DNA of 20,390 bases, from positions 1 to 20,390 of IMG/VR virus record IMGVR_UViG_3300037584_005468; one strand, written 5' to 3'. The stretch is from a virus. Below are positions 9,311 through 20,390 of the stretch, piece after piece; the stretch's first letter is position 1; each line of letters opens with the position of its first letter. The notes beneath the pieces are model-generated. The model saw only the letters and a list, made by a program, of their open reading frames with translations, searched no databases and had not been told where the DNA came from. The translations under genes were made by a program, and so were the position numbers.

Positions 9311-9340
9311 TATATATAATAAATAGTTAGTTTAACTCAA
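9311..9340 (-). promoter_or_regulatory. possible sigma70-type promoter for the RHH-glycosyltransferase run
   Basis: On the minus strand TTGAGT (9340-9335) is separated by 18 bases from TATATA (9316-9311), inside one of only three gaps longer than 20 bases. The -35 box lies on the end of the SLOG gene. Both boxes are imperfect and the gap is AT-rich, so a chance match is possible. Confidence 0.3.
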
Positions 9341-9730
9341 AATAACGAATTTTTTATTTATTTTTTTACAATATTCTAATGCTGATTTTGTTCCGTTGGT
9401 AATCTCTCCGTCTTTACAAAATGCTACAACCTTATCTGAATATTTAACTAAGTCTTTATTTCTCTTGTGATAATAACCTACATTGTAAGGTTTTCCATAA
9501 TTGTAAGCTTCCATTACACAATACATATTGTGGGTTTGGTGTTGTGGTGGGAATTCACTATAAGGTATTTTAAACTCTAATGCAAATTTCTTCGCGTATT
9601 TATCTGCTCCGTCTTTTGCACCACCACTAACTACTTCAACTCCTGGGTGTTCCATTTTCAATCGAAACATAAAGTTCTTAATGTTTCTTTTATTGGTGTA
9701 GGTCCTACTACCTATGATTGCTATCTTCAT
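9332..9730 (-). CDS. SLOG-family (DUF2493, YspA/YpsA-like) nucleotide-binding protein
   Basis: About 132 residues from the ATG at 9730, giving MKIAIIGSRTYTNKRNI, the normal N-terminus of the DUF2493 branch of the SLOG superfamily. The glycine loop VVSGGAKDGADKYAKKFA (about 35-52) and the late NGTKSALEYCKKINKK segment match the ligand-binding sites of this Rossmann-like fold. In-frame ATGs at 9736 and 9775 would add 2 or 15 residues, the latter low-complexity and Lys-rich. The 9730 start is chosen because it begins at the first strand, and it overlaps the preceding gene by 23 bases. SLOG proteins bind nucleotides or nucleotide derivatives and occur in phages and in nucleotide-signalling systems. 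The ligand here is unknown. Confidence 0.8.
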   Translation of the reverse strand: MKIAIIGSRTYTNKRNIKNFMFRLKMEHPGVEVVSGGAKDGADKYAKKFALEFKIPYSEFPPQHQTHNMYCVMEAYNYGKPYNVGYYHKRNKDLVKYSDKVVAFCKDGEITNGTKSALEYCKKINKKFVILS

Positions 9731-10202
9731 CGTCATTTCTTTTTTGTTTTCTTTTCTTGGTTTCAGATGAATCATTGGAATTTACAAAACTATACTTTTT
9801 GTAAAAGTCTTTTAGACCTTCAAGTATTCCAGTTTTTGGGTCATCGTAAAGGTATGCGAATCTGTAATATTGTAGATATGAAAGTGTTGGATTAGGTAAA
9901 TAGTCAATTGAGTTTCTTGGTCTTATGTCATACCAAATAAAATCATTTTGAGTATCAAATAGTTCTGGATATATGGTGAGTTTAGTTGCGTGTTCACCTG
10001 AAGATTTCCAATACTTAATAAATGGTTCTAATGTATTCAAGTCTACCGCTTCATTTTCTCTATCATACCAGAAGTATAATGGAAAGCCGACTCCTTGCAT
10101 ATCCGGTAATTGTTTTAGTTTCATCAGTTCCTGAAATACCTCTTGTTCGTATTCAGTCGCTAAAAAGTCTGTTACTTTAATTCTTAAACCTGGTTCTATC
10201 AT
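9708..10202 (-). CDS. unknown protein with charged tail
   Basis: I do not recognise this 164-residue protein. The N-terminal 140 residues look like a compact mixed alpha/beta domain, rich in aromatic residues (FPLYFWYDRENEAVDLN, NDFIWYDIRP, LSYLQYYRFAYLYD). The last 25 residues are a low-complexity Ser/Lys/Arg/Asp tail (SETKKRKQKRNDDEDSNHR) that overlaps the next gene and may be a by-product of that overlap. Translation is coupled to the nuclease gene by a TAATG overlap, with AAGGAC as ribosome binding site. No membrane segment or signal peptide. Its neighbours (PD-(D/E)XK nuclease, Nmad1, SLOG) hint at nucleic-acid or nucleotide metabolism. Confidence 0.75.
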   Translation of the reverse strand: MIEPGLRIKVTDFLATEYEQEVFQELMKLKQLPDMQGVGFPLYFWYDRENEAVDLNTLEPFIKYWKSSGEHATKLTIYPELFDTQNDFIWYDIRPRNSIDYLPNPTLSYLQYYRFAYLYDDPKTGILEGLKDFYKKYSFVNSNDSSETKKRKQKRNDDEDSNHR

Positions 10203-11978: not shown

Positions 11979-14030
11979 TTAGTATTGATTTGTCATTTCT
12001 GTTCTTGGAAATGAAATTTTGTGTCTTTTGTAATCCATACTATCTTGATACAATTCATCAACTTCATTTGAGTATTTGTATTTCCCAACATTATCTTTAA
12101 TGTTGATTGTATTTCTTGCTACTAAATCTAAATTATCTGTGTCATCAAACAATTGTTTATCAGTCTTTCCAATTTTAAATCCATACTCAACATCAAGTTC
12201 GAAATCATTACCATTAGATTTGAGTGAGAAATTACAATTGAAGTGTGAATCTTTTAAGTTGTATCCTTTGTAGTTATCTCTGATGATAAAATTAATATTT
12301 GATTTATTAGATACATTTACCAATACCCAAGCAAATCCTTTAATTGTTTTTATGACTTCATTTTCAATCGTATCAACTATATTATTTTGTTCTGTTGATA
12401 ATAAAAATTCATTTGTAAATATACTATCGTCCTTTTTCTCTTTCAATTCTACTTCAACCTCTTTGACTTGTAGTGAGTTCTCTCTAATTCTCGCTCTATA
12501 ATATGGTGGCTTTCCACCCTTTTCTTTTGGTGTCGCGTATGAAAAGTCATCTCCGATTAAATCCTCTCCCTCTTTGGTAAAATTAAATGTATTTAACAAG
12601 ACCTCAATAAAAAATGCTCTCAAATGTCTAATCAATAATATATTTTTGTAATCATTTGAAGTCCAAGAATTTAGTATTGTTTTTTCTTTCGATACATCAA
12701 ACTCATCTTTATAAACATCTAATGGTGTGTGGTCTAAAATGTCTGTTGATTGCATTAAATTTAATAATCCATTATTTCCAAAGTATTTATGATTATCATA
12801 CAAGAATTTCAATTGTAACATAAAGTCCATATGATTTTCTTTTGGATAACCTGGAATCCAATTTGCGTTGTAGAATACATTACTCTCGTGAGCTGATTTT
12901 AAGAAATGACTAACATCATCAGAAGTTTGTCCTTTTTCCATTAATGCTAATATTTTATTCACTCCGTTCTCAACACCAACATTCATATAATTTAATCCAA
13001 CATCAACTGCTTTTGTTAACAATTCTCCGTCTAACTTCTTATGTGTTCTGAAATGTCCACCCCAATACATTTTTGGTATATTTCCATTATTTACTTCTTC
13101 TTGCAACTTATCTACAAATTTTTTAAAATTAGGCATTGACCCGTTGATTAGTGAATCAGTAAACCAAAAGTTATTAATGCCAGTCTGTTCTTCTAATCCT
13201 TTCATTTCATTAACTATTTTTTCGTTGTTTTTGTATCTATATAATCTTGTTTCACTACAAAATGTACATTTAAAAGTACAACCTCTTGAAGTTTGCATAG
13301 GTAATGTAACTTCTAAGTCAAATAGTTCTGCCAACTTTCTGTAATCATCAATAACACTTTCGTCCCAACTTGGTGTTTCTAATTCATTAAGATTTTGTGG
13401 TAATAATCCACCATTAAATACTGGTGTTCTACCACTACGACCTTTTTTTAACACCGTAGGAAAACTTGGTGATATTTTATCCCAACGATAAATACCTCTA
13501 ATGTTTTCATAGTGTCCGTCTTCTAAATATTTATTTACCAAATCAGATATAATTCTTTCTCCGTCGTTAGAACCACAAGCGATATCAACAAACTCTCTAT
13601 AATTATCTTTCTCAACTAATCCACCACACTCCGAATACCAAGAGTAAGGACCACCATACCAAATTTGTATCTTTGGATTTTTTTGTTTTACATATCTCGC
13701 AATATAGTCTGTTGTAATAATGTTTGATGTATAAGTGGTGAATGCCACAACATCATATGTTGATAATTTTTCAATATACTCGTGCCATAGGTCTTTAAAA
13801 TAAGGTAGAATTTCTGTTTGAAAGTTTGTTTCTGAATTCCAAGGTTTATCATTACCCCAATCCCAAAACTTTTCTATGTTCTTTTCTTTTGTATAGATTG
13901 ATGATAAGATATTTAAATCTATTTGGTCTACAACGACATCTTTATTGTTGATGTGTGATTTTAAACTACCTATTGCGAACGAAGGTGTTTGAACTGACCA
14001 TTGTGGACAAATACATAATGCTAATCTCAT
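11979..14030 (-). CDS. B12-binding-type radical SAM enzyme
   Basis: A 683-residue class-B-like radical SAM protein. Residues 1-180 resemble a cobalamin-binding domain: LCICPQWSVQTPSFAIGSLKSHI, a DVVVDQIDLNI strand, YDVVAFTTYTSN and IQIWYGGPYSW follow the usual order, but no DxHxxG lower-ligand motif is seen. The radical SAM core starts at TSRGCTFKCTFCSE (C251, C255, C258), which binds the 4Fe-4S cluster that cleaves S-adenosylmethionine. The core continues through FWFTDSLING, YMNVGVENG and the GYPKEN loop (about 394-399). Residues about 430-683 are an extension I do not recognise. The chosen ATG forms an ATGA overlap with the last oxygenase gene. B12 radical SAM enzymes typically methylate or rearrange unreactive carbons; the substrate here is unknown. 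Confidence 0.85.
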   Translation of the reverse strand: MRLALCICPQWSVQTPSFAIGSLKSHINNKDVVVDQIDLNILSSIYTKEKNIEKFWDWGNDKPWNSETNFQTEILPYFKDLWHEYIEKLSTYDVVAFTTYTSNIITTDYIARYVKQKNPKIQIWYGGPYSWYSECGGLVEKDNYREFVDIACGSNDGERIISDLVNKYLEDGHYENIRGIYRWDKISPSFPTVLKKGRSGRTPVFNGGLLPQNLNELETPSWDESVIDDYRKLAELFDLEVTLPMQTSRGCTFKCTFCSETRLYRYKNNEKIVNEMKGLEEQTGINNFWFTDSLINGSMPNFKKFVDKLQEEVNNGNIPKMYWGGHFRTHKKLDGELLTKAVDVGLNYMNVGVENGVNKILALMEKGQTSDDVSHFLKSAHESNVFYNANWIPGYPKENHMDFMLQLKFLYDNHKYFGNNGLLNLMQSTDILDHTPLDVYKDEFDVSKEKTILNSWTSNDYKNILLIRHLRAFFIEVLLNTFNFTKEGEDLIGDDFSYATPKEKGGKPPYYRARIRENSLQVKEVEVELKEKKDDSIFTNEFLLSTEQNNIVDTIENEVIKTIKGFAWVLVNVSNKSNINFIIRDNYKGYNLKDSHFNCNFSLKSNGNDFELDVEYGFKIGKTDKQLFDDTDNLDLVARNTINIKDNVGKYKYSNEVDELYQDSMDYKRHKISFPRTEMTNQY

Positions 14031-14596
14031 ACAAAACAATCTCCCAACATCCAAGTTATCAATGAATATCTTCTACCTTTTGTGATTGGTGTAACTCTAT
14101 GTGATAAGAATGCAGGAAAGATTGTAATACTTCCTCGTGTTCTTGGTGCGGTATAATTGTTTTTACCTGATTTATCCGTGATACCAAACTCTAAATTTCC
14201 ACCCTCATAACTATCTGGGTCTGATAACTGAATAATAGCAGTTAGTTTTCTTGTAGAAGTTTCTTTTGCTCCACAATCGGTATGCCATTTATATTTACCA
14301 CCATTTTCATATCGTAATATCTTTACCTTTTCCATTTCTTGTATATTGTATTTCCAAATAGATAGATTAGATAACTCAAATACCATTTTTAGTTTGTTAT
14401 TGAGTTTCTCATTACTGATTGTAACTTCTTTATTATCACGAACTTCTTTGTTCAGAATATTATCATCATAATTACCAGCGAGTTCTGATTCAGTCGGTTG
14501 TCCTGTTTCTAAATATCTCATCAGTTTTTGACATTGACTTAATGATAGAAAGTCCTTTTTGTGAACTACAAATTTAAAGTTGTCGTTTTGTATCAT
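14027..14596 (-). CDS. 2-oxoglutarate/Fe(II) oxygenase, third of a tandem triplet
   Basis: A 189-residue prolyl-4-hydroxylase-type dioxygenase that would couple oxidation of a substrate to decarboxylation of 2-oxoglutarate. The facial triad is intact: WHTD gives H105 and D107, SHRVTP gives H166, and R176 ten residues later is the 2-oxoglutarate-binding Arg. YEGGNLEFG between them is the usual beta hairpin. The ATG at 14596 makes an ATGA overlap with the preceding oxygenase gene; an upstream in-frame ATG at 14629 would add eleven residues lying entirely inside that gene and is rejected. Length is close to the minimal catalytic domain, with no extra substrate domain. It is followed by the radical SAM gene through another ATGA overlap, so the four are probably co-translated. 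Confidence 0.9.
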   Translation of the reverse strand: MIQNDNFKFVVHKKDFLSLSQCQKLMRYLETGQPTESELAGNYDDNILNKEVRDNKEVTISNEKLNNKLKMVFELSNLSIWKYNIQEMEKVKILRYENGGKYKWHTDCGAKETSTRKLTAIIQLSDPDSYEGGNLEFGITDKSGKNNYTAPRTRGSITIFPAFLSHRVTPITKGRRYSLITWMLGDCFV

Positions 14597-15189
14597 ACGA
14601 AAGTATCTCCTACACCCCAACATACACAAGAATATCTATTTCCTTCGGTTATTGGTGACACCCCGTGTCCTGCAAATGATGGATGTATAATTAATTTACC
14701 AACCTCTTTTTCTATTTTTGTTCCGTCAAACAATGTAAATTCTCCACCCTCGTAATCTGTATTTAAAAATACGATACAAGTTAATTTGACTGAACTAAAT
14801 CTTTTAATTGGGTGAAAGTCTGAGTGTTGATTATACCAATCTCCAATATCGTATCTATGTGCTTGTAGTCTGTTGTCGTAAATCCCTTTGATATTATATT
14901 TGTAAATCATTTGGTCTGCCACTTGAATTGCAGTCCAGAACTTATCAAGATACTTTTGTTCTTCTGTTCTGCTGATGTTCAACATACAAACTTCATCTTT
15001 CATAACTGGTTCGTCTTGCCAAGTAGGATTTACTCCACCTGTGTAATGTCCTTGTTTTCTTTCAGATTGTTCATCAATATATTTGATAAAGAAATCACAA
15101 TCCTCTTGCGTAAAGAAATTACTTTTTTCAACTACCCATTTGAAGTTTTGGTTTAACTTCAAACTATCCATATCTATTGGTTTATACAT
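14593..15189 (-). CDS. 2-oxoglutarate/Fe(II) oxygenase, second of a tandem triplet
   Basis: A 198-residue paralogue of its two neighbours. It has H122 and D124 in QHSDFHP, H175 in FAGHGVSPI and R185 ten residues on, so all catalytic and cosubstrate-binding residues are present. The hairpin reads DYEGGEFTLFDG, and FDG-type ends are common in PKHD/P4H relatives. It differs from the other two in having no FG.....K insert and a shorter strand before the last His, so it may be the most specialised copy. The N-terminus NFKWVVEKSNFFTQEDCDFF aligns with those of the siblings. AGGATAAAA precedes the ATG; it lies seven bases after the first oxygenase gene. Confidence 0.9.
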   Translation of the reverse strand: MYKPIDMDSLKLNQNFKWVVEKSNFFTQEDCDFFIKYIDEQSERKQGHYTGGVNPTWQDEPVMKDEVCMLNISRTEEQKYLDKFWTAIQVADQMIYKYNIKGIYDNRLQAHRYDIGDWYNQHSDFHPIKRFSSVKLTCIVFLNTDYEGGEFTLFDGTKIEKEVGKLIIHPSFAGHGVSPITEGNRYSCVCWGVGDTFV

Positions 15190-15196
15190 TTTTATC

Positions 15197-15823
15197 CTAT
15201 TTGAAGTGGTCTCCGATAAATAATTCTTGAATTACATATCGTTTACCTTTACTGATTGGAACAACATTATGACATAGAAATGCCGGAAAGAAAGTTAATG
15301 AACCTTTTAGTTTGTTCATTGAATACCATTCTTTAGTGTCTTTTTCTTGGATACCGAATTGAACATCTCCACCCTCGTATTCACTTGGGTCTGTTAATTG
15401 AAGTATCCCTACTAATTTTCTTACTGAACAAGTTCCCGCATTAAAGTCTGTGTGCCAACCATAAAATCCACCTTTTGTGTATTCTATTAATTTTAATTCA
15501 TTATCACACCCGTCAATATCAAAATGAAATACTTTATCATTTACGATATTGGCCATTTGAAACATTTTGTCCTGTAACCATTTCCAATCTTTGTTTGGTT
15601 TTGTTGGTCTGAATTGGTTTTCCTCTTGTTCACACAAATACCACTCATTAGTTTTTCTAATCTCTGGTATGACTGCATTTTTTCCTTGTTCATCTCCAAC
15701 ACAACCAATGACATCTTGTTCTGATTCCATAATGTCTTTTAGTAATTCATCACATTTTTCTGATGATAAAAAGTTTGGAATTTGAACTGAATATAAAAAG
15801 TCGTTATTCTGTTTCTGACTCAT
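15197..15823 (-). CDS. 2-oxoglutarate/Fe(II) oxygenase, first of a tandem triplet
   Basis: A 208-residue dioxygenase. The triad is H124 and D126 (YGWHTD), H185 (FLCHNVVP) and the cosubstrate Arg is R195, at the same ten-residue spacing as in both paralogues. The pre-triad hairpin is EYEGGDVQFG. It is closer to the third copy (shared FFPAFL.H and an FG-K insert) than to the second. It begins 20 bases inside the end of the Hint-domain gene, so translation of the two is linked. A structural or Hint protein beside a row of hydroxylase-like enzymes suggests that the enzymes may modify a virion component, but the sequence does not prove this. Confidence 0.9.
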   Translation of the reverse strand: MSQKQNNDFLYSVQIPNFLSSEKCDELLKDIMESEQDVIGCVGDEQGKNAVIPEIRKTNEWYLCEQEENQFRPTKPNKDWKWLQDKMFQMANIVNDKVFHFDIDGCDNELKLIEYTKGGFYGWHTDFNAGTCSVRKLVGILQLTDPSEYEGGDVQFGIQEKDTKEWYSMNKLKGSLTFFPAFLCHNVVPISKGKRYVIQELFIGDHFK

Positions 15824-17615
15824 CTGATACTAAAACCCTATTCGCAAAGTAATTCTTGCCGTTATTTGTTTTGTTAATGTTGTATGTTTCTATAAGTCCG
15901 TCAATTTTTTCAACACTAACTACTTTAATTTTGTTTAATTCATCTGTTAAAACTTCATCACCCACTTCTAATGGTCTGTAATCTGAATCTATGTGTGAAT
16001 CACTCGTGATAAAAAATGGGTGGTCATCTGTGGCCATAATTTCAGTATTATCATCAAACTTATATTTGACTAAATTATCGTGTAGAATTTTTACAACCTC
16101 TAAAACTACTGAGTCTTGTAATTTACCATTTTCTACATCATAGGTTTTTATTTTTGAACCTAATTCAATGTGTTTAATTTTATGATAAGTTCCGTCTGTT
16201 AATGTAATCATTGTATCACCTGTAAAACATTTACCTGGTGGAATATTATGGACCAATATGTCTGATGTAAAGTATGTATCAATGTCCTCTACATCTAATG
16301 AATAAAATGTTTCTTCTTGTGCGACTTCTGTTTTTGATGTAATCTCAACCTCGTTTCCGTCTTTATCCAAGAAGTAATCTCCTGTATCTATATCGGTGGG
16401 TTTAGCCCAACTCCAAACATCTCCCTGTTTCAAGAAGTATCTCGCACCTTTCATCATAGATTGTTTCATAACTGGAACTTTTATACTTCCGTTAATTAAA
16501 TAATACCCATAATAATCCTCTTGATATGTTCTAACCACAACTGAACCTGAAGCGACTGAACCACTCAAATCTGTTGAACTATAACTTAACCAATCCTCAA
16601 AAAAGAATTCATCTGGCATTCCAACTGGTTTGTATGATTTAACAACATCACCTATTTGAACATCTTGAACTTGTTTTGTTGAGTCATCATACATACGAAT
16701 TAAACTACCACTCGGTGTTGAGTATAATAATGCATTTTGCATATGATATCTATCACCACTCAAAATAAACTTTGGTGCTATTGAAACATCTAACTTATCT
16801 TTTTTCTTAATTAGTATTTGTCTATCTGGTGTCATTAAATATTCATACTTCGGTGATTTCAAATATCCTTGTGTTCCTACGGTTGAACCACTCGGAACAA
16901 TGTAAGTTTCAATTAATGAACCACTACTGACTGCATTTTGGTAAGTAGGATTTTCTGCAATATACTTGTGAAACAATATACTATTGTCATACGCAGTTCC
17001 ATCTACACTTGGGTTTTTAACCACGAAGTCCGGGTGATAAGGATTAGAATCTGAAAATGAACCCGTATTAAATAATGGAATTAAACTCGAACTTTCTGGT
17101 GATGAACTTAATATTGTTCTGAATGTTGTTTTGTTAAATGAACCACTAACAATGTTTAATAATGTATCATCACTATACCAAGGTGTTTGCATAAACAAAT
17201 GAAAACTTCCAGTAAATTGATTTTGCCCTCTTTGTGAAAAATAAGTATGCGATGTGTTTCCATTGTATTCAAAATTTACTGGTATTCCGTGTCTTGCAAA
17301 ACTTGCACTAATTATTGGTTGTTGAAATGTAGATGGATTTTCTTTTACATTATCATTTTGTCCATAAATATATGCAGTTGTACAACCTTTTTCGTTTGCA
17401 TAATCTGATATCAAATCAAATGACGCTGTTTGTTCATTATAAGAACCATACATACCACAAGCTGTATTCATTTCATTAAAATAAATATCGTCGGTGGTTT
17501 CCTCTTTGATATAATCAACACCAGATAAAATACCAATATTAGTATTTGAAGGCCAACCTCCACCACTTCCGGTGATATAATTTAAATAATTTTCTATTTT
17601 TGTTTGTATTGACAT
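15804..17615 (-). CDS. virion-like Gly/Ser-rich protein with two Hint domains
   Basis: A 603-residue protein. Residues 1-290 are a Gly/Ser/Thr-rich, beta-type region with repeated SGS or TGS turns (TGSGGG, SGSFNK, TGSFSD, SSGSL, PSGSTVG), reminiscent of phage structural proteins but not matched to a known one. Residues about 297-457 look like one Hint (intein/hedgehog) domain ending in SDILVHN (H456-N457). Residues about 463-603 look like a second, beginning CFTGDTMITL (C463) with ATDDHPFF as the TxxH-type block, ending ANRVLVSDESETE. The first lacks the Cys and TxxH histidine; the second lacks the final HN. AGGAAAAA precedes the ATG in a 27-base gap, and the 3' end overlaps the first oxygenase gene. 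The role may be autoproteolysis, or the domains may be inactive scaffolds. Confidence 0.72.
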   Translation of the reverse strand: MSIQTKIENYLNYITGSGGGWPSNTNIGILSGVDYIKEETTDDIYFNEMNTACGMYGSYNEQTASFDLISDYANEKGCTTAYIYGQNDNVKENPSTFQQPIISASFARHGIPVNFEYNGNTSHTYFSQRGQNQFTGSFHLFMQTPWYSDDTLLNIVSGSFNKTTFRTILSSSPESSSLIPLFNTGSFSDSNPYHPDFVVKNPSVDGTAYDNSILFHKYIAENPTYQNAVSSGSLIETYIVPSGSTVGTQGYLKSPKYEYLMTPDRQILIKKKDKLDVSIAPKFILSGDRYHMQNALLYSTPSGSLIRMYDDSTKQVQDVQIGDVVKSYKPVGMPDEFFFEDWLSYSSTDLSGSVASGSVVVRTYQEDYYGYYLINGSIKVPVMKQSMMKGARYFLKQGDVWSWAKPTDIDTGDYFLDKDGNEVEITSKTEVAQEETFYSLDVEDIDTYFTSDILVHNIPPGKCFTGDTMITLTDGTYHKIKHIELGSKIKTYDVENGKLQDSVVLEVVKILHDNLVKYKFDDNTEIMATDDHPFFITSDSHIDSDYRPLEVGDEVLTDELNKIKVVSVEKIDGLIETYNINKTNNGKNYFANRVLVSDESETE

Positions 17616-19486: not shown

Positions 19487-19740
19487 TACACTCCTGGTTT
19501 TGCTAAACCTGCTGACTCTAACATATTTTGTGGAACTTTTCCACAACTACCACAAGTAAAAACTTGAATCGGAACGATTGATTCTTTACCTGTTGGTGAT
19601 ACTAACGCCGATATCTTCTTTAAAAAGAAAGCCGGTGTGAATGCTGCGTTTCCACAATCCTCACATTGTATAGTATCTGCGTCTGTCAAGTCGAGTTGTG
19701 GTTGTACTTTTGGTGGTACTGGTCCATTTGGATTACTCAT
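19486..19740 (-). CDS. small zinc-ribbon protein
   Basis: An 84-residue protein with two CxxC knuckles (C26, C29 and C63, C66, each followed by Gly) spaced as in a treble-clef or zinc-ribbon fold, with a Pro-rich, Gly/Asn N-terminal leader. The middle holds two short hydrophobic strands (TPAFFLKKISALV, IVPIQVFTCG). It is joined to gene 44 by an ATGA overlap and has the strong ribosome binding site AGGGAG, so it is probably made with the clamp loader and may be an accessory of replication or transcription. That link rests only on position; the fold alone gives no function. Confidence 0.75.
   Translation of the reverse strand: MSNPNGPVPPKVQPQLDLTDADTIQCEDCGNAAFTPAFFLKKISALVSPTGKESIVPIQVFTCGSCGKVPQNMLESAGLAKPGV
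19491..19495 (-). promoter_or_regulatory. ribosome binding site deciding the first SGNH start
   Basis: AGGAG on the minus strand lies four bases before the ATG at 19486, within the last codons of the zinc-ribbon gene. Together with the one-base TAATG overlap it fixes this start. Confidence 0.6.
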
Positions 19741-20390
19741 TTGATACTCCCTATTAATTCTACAAACATAGCCATAATGTTGATTTCTTTATCAACCACT
19801 ACGGCGTCTGATTGTTGATATTTACTTAAAATCAATATACACTCGGCGATATGTCCTTGACCCCAATCATCTACGGTATCAAACATTAGTCTAAATAAAT
19901 CACTAAAGTCTGTTACTTTTGAATCTGCTAACAATTGTCTAATGTTTTTGAATGAGTTTTTCTTATCCTGTGTTTTCAATATATCCAACACTTGATTTTT
20001 ATAATCATTTTGAACAATAGTATTTTCATCAATCATTAGTTTAGAATCTACGACCTGTCTTTGAGCACCATTGATTACTCTTCTGATGTCTGGATAACCA
20101 CCATTTACTATGGTTGCGATATCTTTAACATCATATTGAACTTCTTCATTTGTCAATATGTTTGCCAAATGTTGTGCCACTTGTTTTCTGTCTGGTGGAA
20201 CTATTTGAAATGATTGACAACGACTTTGTATCGGGTCAATAATTCGTTCTACATAATTACAAGTCAATATAAAACGACAATTCTTTGAGAAAGTTTCCAT
20301 AAGATTACGAAGTGCTGCTTGAGCGTTTGGTGTAATGTAATCACACTCATCCAAGATAATCACTTTCATATCTTTGAAACCTAATGTTGA
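19737..20390 (-). CDS. 44: sliding clamp loader large subunit gp44-like, 5' end outside the window
   Basis: The C-terminal 217 residues of a AAA+ ATPase; the frame is open to the window edge, seven codons upstream of the first visible ATG, so the Walker A region lies outside. Visible are the Walker B/DExx box IILDECDYI, the sensor 1 strand RFILTCNY, the SRC motif SRCQSF that inserts the trans-acting Arg finger, and GGYPDIRRVI, the sensor 2 region. A helical collar domain follows. These identify the T4 gp44/RFC-type clamp loader, whose tetramer with gp62 places the sliding clamp for the replicative polymerase. It ends in an ATGA overlap with the zinc-ribbon gene. The order, spacing and SRC motif leave little doubt. 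Confidence 0.92.
   Translation of the reverse strand, partial: STLGFKDMKVIILDECDYITPNAQAALRNLMETFSKNCRFILTCNYVERIIDPIQSRCQSFQIVPPDRKQVAQHLANILTNEEVQYDVKDIATIVNGGYPDIRRVINGAQRQVVDSKLMIDENTIVQNDYKNQVLDILKTQDKKNSFKNIRQLLADSKVTDFSDLFRLMFDTVDDWGQGHIAECILILSKYQQSDAVVVDKEINIMAMFVELIGSIK

Follow-up and report, generated by a model that had tools for sequence, protein, structure and literature searches.

A C-terminal array of one to four Hint domains in marine T4-like phages, with catalytic residues apparently lost at its outer ends

What does a protein do with two consecutive Hint domains when each lacks the chemistry of one end? The question is raised by a 603-residue open reading frame in a 20,390-base virus fragment with T4-like phage genes (the window; Table 1), whose product ends in two such domains, D1 and D2. 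A preliminary description of this DNA had offered three readings: a decayed tandem, a permuted pair acting together, or a self-cleaving linker in a virion protein. We searched for relatives using the whole protein, its N-terminal domain, D1, D2 and two further Hint domains of relatives, M1 and M2, as scan queries. The scans gave several hundred loci, many of which are overlapping views of the same contigs, and array architectures were assigned with profiles built in this analysis. The family belongs to uncultured marine T4-like phages.

Table 1. The array gene, its parts and neighbouring genes in the window (positions in bases of the window).
Feature	Position	Strand	Remarks
Array gene, 603-residue ORF	15804..17615	-	N-terminal domain, Hint D1, linker IPPGK, Hint D2, short tail
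N-terminal domain, residues 1-293	16737..17615	-	ATP-grasp-like AlphaFold2 model, similar to glutathione synthetase and E. coli YgiC; no support by sequence
Hint D1, residues 299-457	16245..16721	-	Without N-terminal chemistry: S299 in place of Cys1, A391 where block B should have His
H456-N457 of D1	16245..16250	-	Candidate Asn-cyclisation site (N457-I458 bond); invariant in 104 distinct D1 segments
Linker I458-P-P-G-K462, D1 to D2	16230..16244	-	Point where the proteins of D1-only relatives end
Hint D2, residues 463-598	15822..16229	-	Cys1 and TDDH retained; S597-D598 in place of HN
C463 of D2	16227..16229	-	Candidate nucleophile of an N-S acyl shift; predicted scissile bond K462-C463
D2 block B, T529-D-D-H532	16020..16031	-	Motif
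C-terminal tail E599-SETE	15807..15821	-	HN followed by ESDT at the equivalent site in one complete D2-like homologue
2OG-Fe(II) oxygenase gene	15197..15823	-	Overlaps the stop of the array gene; Pfam
Two further 2OG-Fe(II) oxygenase genes	14593-15189 and 14027-14629 (span 14027..15189)	-	Pfam
Clamp-loader subunit gene	19737-20369		Gp44 lid-domain match below the Pfam cut-off

The proposal that the protein ends in two tandem Hint domains was borne out by Pfam and NCBIfam for D2 and by a fold model for D1. D2 matches the Pfam families Intein_splicing, PT-HINT and Hint and the NCBIfam model intein_Nterm (2.1e-8), with its start at C463. The D2 region also matched solved BIL and intein domains, both in phmmer and when the full-length model was compared by Foldseek, and among solved structures its nearest relative is BIL2 of Tetrahymena BUBL1. 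By sequence, D1 matches PT-HINT and Intein_splicing weakly (about 7e-4). The full-length AlphaFold model is of low quality at the D1 end and in some stretches of D2, and its D2 part has modest confidence. A model of residues 1–460, comprising the N-terminal part and D1 without D2 (mean pLDDT 86.8, pTM 0.86), gave D1 a clear Hint fold, with Foldseek matches to T. thermophila BIL2 (about 1e-10, TM 0.77) and to a C. thermocellum BIL domain (TM 0.82). D1 and D2 both have the fold of the Hint superfamily and align with each other in hhalign (E 2e-9); judged by such alignments, D1, M1 and D2 are homologous Hint domains.

The catalytic residues were largely as first described. S299 occupies the Cys1 position of D1, aligning with Cys1 of a phage NCTB relative, and the domain ends in H456-N457, followed by the linker; D2 has C463, the TDDH motif and an SD end. 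Block B of D1 does lack a histidine, and here one detail changes: the segment that hhalign places there is M388-K-G-A391, not the VMKQ at 382–385. The division of chemistry between the domains recurs in about 100 non-redundant IMG/VR relatives. Across 104 distinct D1 segments, taken without selecting on HN[IL]P, H456, N457 and P459 never vary, position 299 is Ser, Thr, Ile or Met, and His is absent from column 391. Of 81 distinct D2 segments, 80 have C463 and all have H532; SD replaces HN in 77, the remaining four having HN (three) or a frameshift (one). Values of dN/dS (0.07–0.32 for D1, 0.08–0.40 for D2) indicate that both domains evolve under purifying selection, and the residue pattern is, on these alignments, far beyond chance.

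These observations leave next to no probability for plain decay or an assembly artefact of one contig. Each domain taken alone does look defective, but the same residues are found in about 100 non-redundant relatives on many contigs, with dN/dS well below 1. The idea of a decayed tandem was thus correct in that each domain is without the chemistry of one end, and incorrect in that the protein is conserved under purifying selection; a pseudogene was ruled out on the same conservation and dN/dS. The invariant HN of D1 does not on its own prove chemistry: as many as 30 of its 159 columns, including much of I-D-T-Y-F-x-S-x-x-x-V-H-N, are as invariant, and the SD of D2 is nearly so. That HN is invariant though the other catalytic residues are lost nevertheless suggests, from the alignment, that D1 is not simply inert.

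On its assigned architecture, the window protein is one member of a family with a BIL-like C-terminal array of variable length, from one to four Hint domains, in which the window's D1 and D2 are the first and last members. Complete ORFs, with N for the N-terminal domain, comprised N-D1 (11), N-D1-D2 (36), N-D1-M3-D2 (3), N-D1-M1 (3), N-D1-M1-D2 (10 and 8), N-D1-M1-M2 (1 and 8), N-D1-M1-M2-D2 (10 and 2) and N-D1-M1-M2-M1 (1). Where the contig covers that part of the gene, no array protein of this family lacking D1 was found. The M1, M2 and M3 domains scored at junctions all begin with Cys and end in HN (41/41), and the next residue is Lys for M1 and M3 (28/28) and Ser or Thr for M2 (13/13). Block B of M1 reads TFDH in the main type and VADH in one subgroup. 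Cys1, TGNH, HN and Ser or Thr at +1 in all 13 scored M2 domains (for example L164:3563-3991, L049:2573-3001 and L190:3563-3991) are, by motif, a splicing-intein signature inside the array.

Within the listed arrays, Hint domains are separated by 1–6 residues, and the last domain is followed by tails such as IPPK, KMP, KEP, SP, ESETE or EFGRK. The linker before Cys1 varies from IPP to LPPKC, so no single sequence is required there. In three arrays the last domain is D2-like and complete, with HN, and in one of these HN is followed by ESDT, a tail that many D2 domains carry after SD. Phage NCTB and Erwinia phages encode complete relatives of D1 (Cys1, TxxH, HN). Since D1 and D2 each have complete relatives, each appears to have lost its chemistry on the side that points away from the rest of the array. 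Matches in isolated phages were to the Hint parts only, and an M1-D2 query had no match there at E 1e-8. Separately, an unrelated 1502-residue phage protein (L363:44-4549) ends in two complete tandem Hint domains; its 112-kb contig also encodes a Gp23-type capsid protein.

The architectures bear directly on the proposed permuted pair, in which D1 and D2 would be complementary and share one active site, or would stand in the SICLOPPS-like order C-half, peptide, N-half and cyclise IPPGK. The order of the chemistry (HN, peptide, Cys) is that of a permuted intein, and a passage of PMC7664689 cites a report of a BIL domain ligating without nucleophilic side chains (Aranko 2013). However, D1 keeps its invariant HN in 11 complete ORFs that have no D2, dozens of relatives have complete Hint domains between D1 and D2, and linker length varies. 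Complete homologues of either domain, which had been expected to speak against such a pair, exist as three D2-like domains in last position and as D1 relatives in jumbo phages. D1 and D2 each align over nearly the whole Hint domain, and not as the C-half and N-half of one intein. Given that D1-only proteins exist, as do arrays whose intervening domains are complete, we set aside an obligate or SICLOPPS-like pair as the main reading and regard it as very improbable.

Our best overall explanation, to which we assign a probability of about 0.6, is a fusion of the N-terminal domain and D1 that carries a detachable Hint array, with chemistry lost at the outward ends and with D2 cleaving. The N-terminal, ATP-grasp-like domain would be permanently fused to D1, which would be unable to cut itself off from it, and further self-processing Hint domains of the BIL kind would be appended after D1 in variable number. 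D2, as the last in the chain, would have no need to cut after itself. C463 would attack the preceding K462–C463 bond in an N-S acyl shift assisted by H532, forming a thioester, and hydrolysis, an amine or another nucleophile would then free D2. The predicted product is residues 1–462 ending in IPPGK, possibly conjugated at its C terminus. Cleavage by D2 is probable; that D1 also cleaves after N457 is predicted more tentatively, at slightly under even odds.

By analogy with B-type BIL and Hog domains, D2 is equipped for the acyl shift at K462–C463 and not for cutting after itself. B-type BIL domains have no C-terminal motif and cleave at their N terminus (PMC7765530), and BIL2 of Tetrahymena BUBL1 transfers its N-flank to lysine (PMC8616854). 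What we consider the best argument that D2 is a detachable module is that D1-only phages encode a near-product: their proteins end just past HN, in LPPK (5), IPPK (4), IPQK (3) or IPGKE (1), whereas IPPGK or IPPRK precedes the Cys of D2 in the arrays that have it. The correspondence is not clean: IPPK lacks one residue relative to IPPGK, and the tail of one protein is IPGKE. The nearly invariant SD end of D2 could also be structural rather than lost chemistry.

The active ends of D1 and D2 face the linker, and this invites a variant in which both inward ends work, D1 cutting after N457 by Asn cyclisation and D2 before C463. H456 and N457 are invariant in the 104 D1 segments while position 299 and column 391 drift, and D2 tolerates SD at the equivalent site, so that HN is not needed for the fold as such. 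Against this, HN does not stand out, since 30 of 159 D1 columns show the same invariance, and the tail of D1-only proteins is conserved (P459 in 104/104), which would be pointless were it merely cut off. Cutting at both inward ends seems to us unlikely, though worth keeping in view, and we hold the same of the piece that would be released by it, IPPGK here and whole Hint domains in relatives. More doubtful still is that nothing is cleaved and that the Hint domains, without catalytic activity, serve for folding or binding: half of the catalytic residues of D1 are indeed lost, yet divergent sequences under purifying selection retain Cys1 and TxxH in D2, and Cys1 and HN in the M domains.

The evolution of the arrays suits the detachable-array explanation. 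A phylogeny of the N-terminal domain requires at least nine changes of array type, as would suit C-terminal modules that remove themselves; the D1-only type needs four changes, at least 3 of them forced by well-supported branches. Nucleotide identity between the window and either of two relatives (L030 or L031) is about 70–80% in the part preceding the linker and reaches about 90% or more within D2 (15804-16229), and dS drops likewise from the linker into D2 for some pairs. From this rise in identity and fall in dS at the linker, D2 appears to have been exchanged as a module between phage lineages.

The N-terminal domain offers a lead only. In Foldseek its model matches glutathione synthetase and YgiC, a protein whose E. 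coli annotation is peptide-spermidine ligase, with an E of about 1e-5 but a TM of about 0.3 over a multi-domain alignment. The domain has no match in Pfam or PDB sequences, and neither the GSP_synth and GSH_synth_ATP models nor hhalign against E. coli YgiC gave support; because sequence methods give none, we treat the ATP-grasp likeness, from predicted fold only, as no more than that lead. An E-x-N-T motif (E48, N50, T51) presumably recalls the Mg ligands of glutathione synthetase. Sequence relatives of the domain (16737-17615) were found only in these phages, and none in the bacterial and archaeal genome collection.

The array gene lies between the clamp-loader gene and the 2OG-Fe(II) oxygenase genes. 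In the loci studied closely, a clamp-loader gene and a gene for an 80-residue protein with CxxC pairs lie upstream, the intervening genes varying. A same-strand homologue of the window's oxygenases lies within 900 bases downstream in 114/114 array genes, those with enough downstream sequence, which are non-redundant by protein and not necessarily by contig. The window itself has three consecutive oxygenase genes (14027-15823), followed downstream by a gene for a radical SAM protein (11979-14054), whose B12-binding match is weak and does not reach the Pfam cut-off; a YspA/cpYpsA SLOG-family protein is encoded at 9332-9775. The 2OG-Fe(II) oxygenase superfamily includes prolyl hydroxylases, and one could speculate, with very little confidence, that the array excises and perhaps cyclises the Pro-Pro linker through the Asn chemistry of D1 and the thioester chemistry of D2, and that the adjacent oxygenases modify it. 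With these neighbours and an ATP-grasp-like predicted N-terminal fold, the earlier suggestion of a virion protein found no support. A PHROG 'virion structural protein' match, considered and set aside, covers D1 only, as do the matches of jumbo-phage relatives.

Among known systems, the single domains are of familiar BIL-like and intein-like kinds. The Hint fold and short, variable flanks are common to BIL domains of types A and B and the phage array. Typed by eye from motifs, M1 and M3 resemble type A (Cys1, HN, no Ser/Thr/Cys after HN), which D1 without Cys1 and D2 without HN do not, and the motifs of D2 are compatible with type B (no C-terminal HN, N-terminal cleavage expected), though three D2-like homologues still have HN. 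Unlike BIL domains, the phage protein has up to three further Hint domains after D1, whose N-terminal chemistry is lost. The Tetrahymena BUBL1 polyubiquitin-like locus likewise has several Hint domains per polyprotein; among solved structures, its BIL2 gives the best match for D1 as well as for D2, and this domain moves its N-flank to lysine, the residue that always follows phage M1 and M3. In BUBL1, however, Hint domains are interleaved with folded ubiquitin-like domains, an arrangement absent from the phage arrays with their 1–6-residue spacing, and the phage host protein has an ATP-grasp-like predicted fold.

Hedgehog Hog is, like D2, a C-terminal Hint domain with Cys1 and TxxH, no HN and expected upstream thioester activation; D2 differs in having only five residues after it, no sterol-recognition region, and another Hint domain upstream. 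Class 1 inteins resemble the M2 domains of relatives (Cys1, TGNH, HN, Ser or Thr at +1), whereas D1 (no TxxH, Ile at +1) and D2 (no HN) are without splicing residues, and there is no endonuclease domain or split host gene; ordinary splicing stays unlikely for both, as first supposed. C-terminal Hint domains of proteins encoded in the tail region of jumbo phages (phage NCTB, Erwinia phages) belong to the same D1-like subfamily, with HN followed by 3–10 residues. Phage NCTB BN7874_135 is a stand-alone Hint domain with an N-terminal loss of the same kind as in D1, but the others differ from D1 in being complete (Cys1, TxxH, HN), single and adjacent to annotated tail proteins. At L061:723-1184 in phage NCTB, a stand-alone 153-residue Hint domain without Cys1 or TxxH ends in LVHNKVD and directly follows a tail-protein gene bearing its own C-terminal Hint domain.

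In open-licence papers we found no description of a phage protein whose array has as many as four Hint domains and decayed outer ends, and, as far as that literature shows, tandem arrays of one to four Hint domains ending a phage protein are apparently undescribed. Within a single gene family, self-processing domains have been gained, lost and exchanged, and the arrays form a natural series of zero to three appended domains in which evolution has separated the functions of the two ends of the Hint domain. The invariable 2OG-Fe(II) oxygenase neighbour is a tangible starting point for working out function. Were D2 to pass the N-terminal part on to another molecule, like Tetrahymena BIL2, the array would be an ATP-independent protein-conjugation device in phages.
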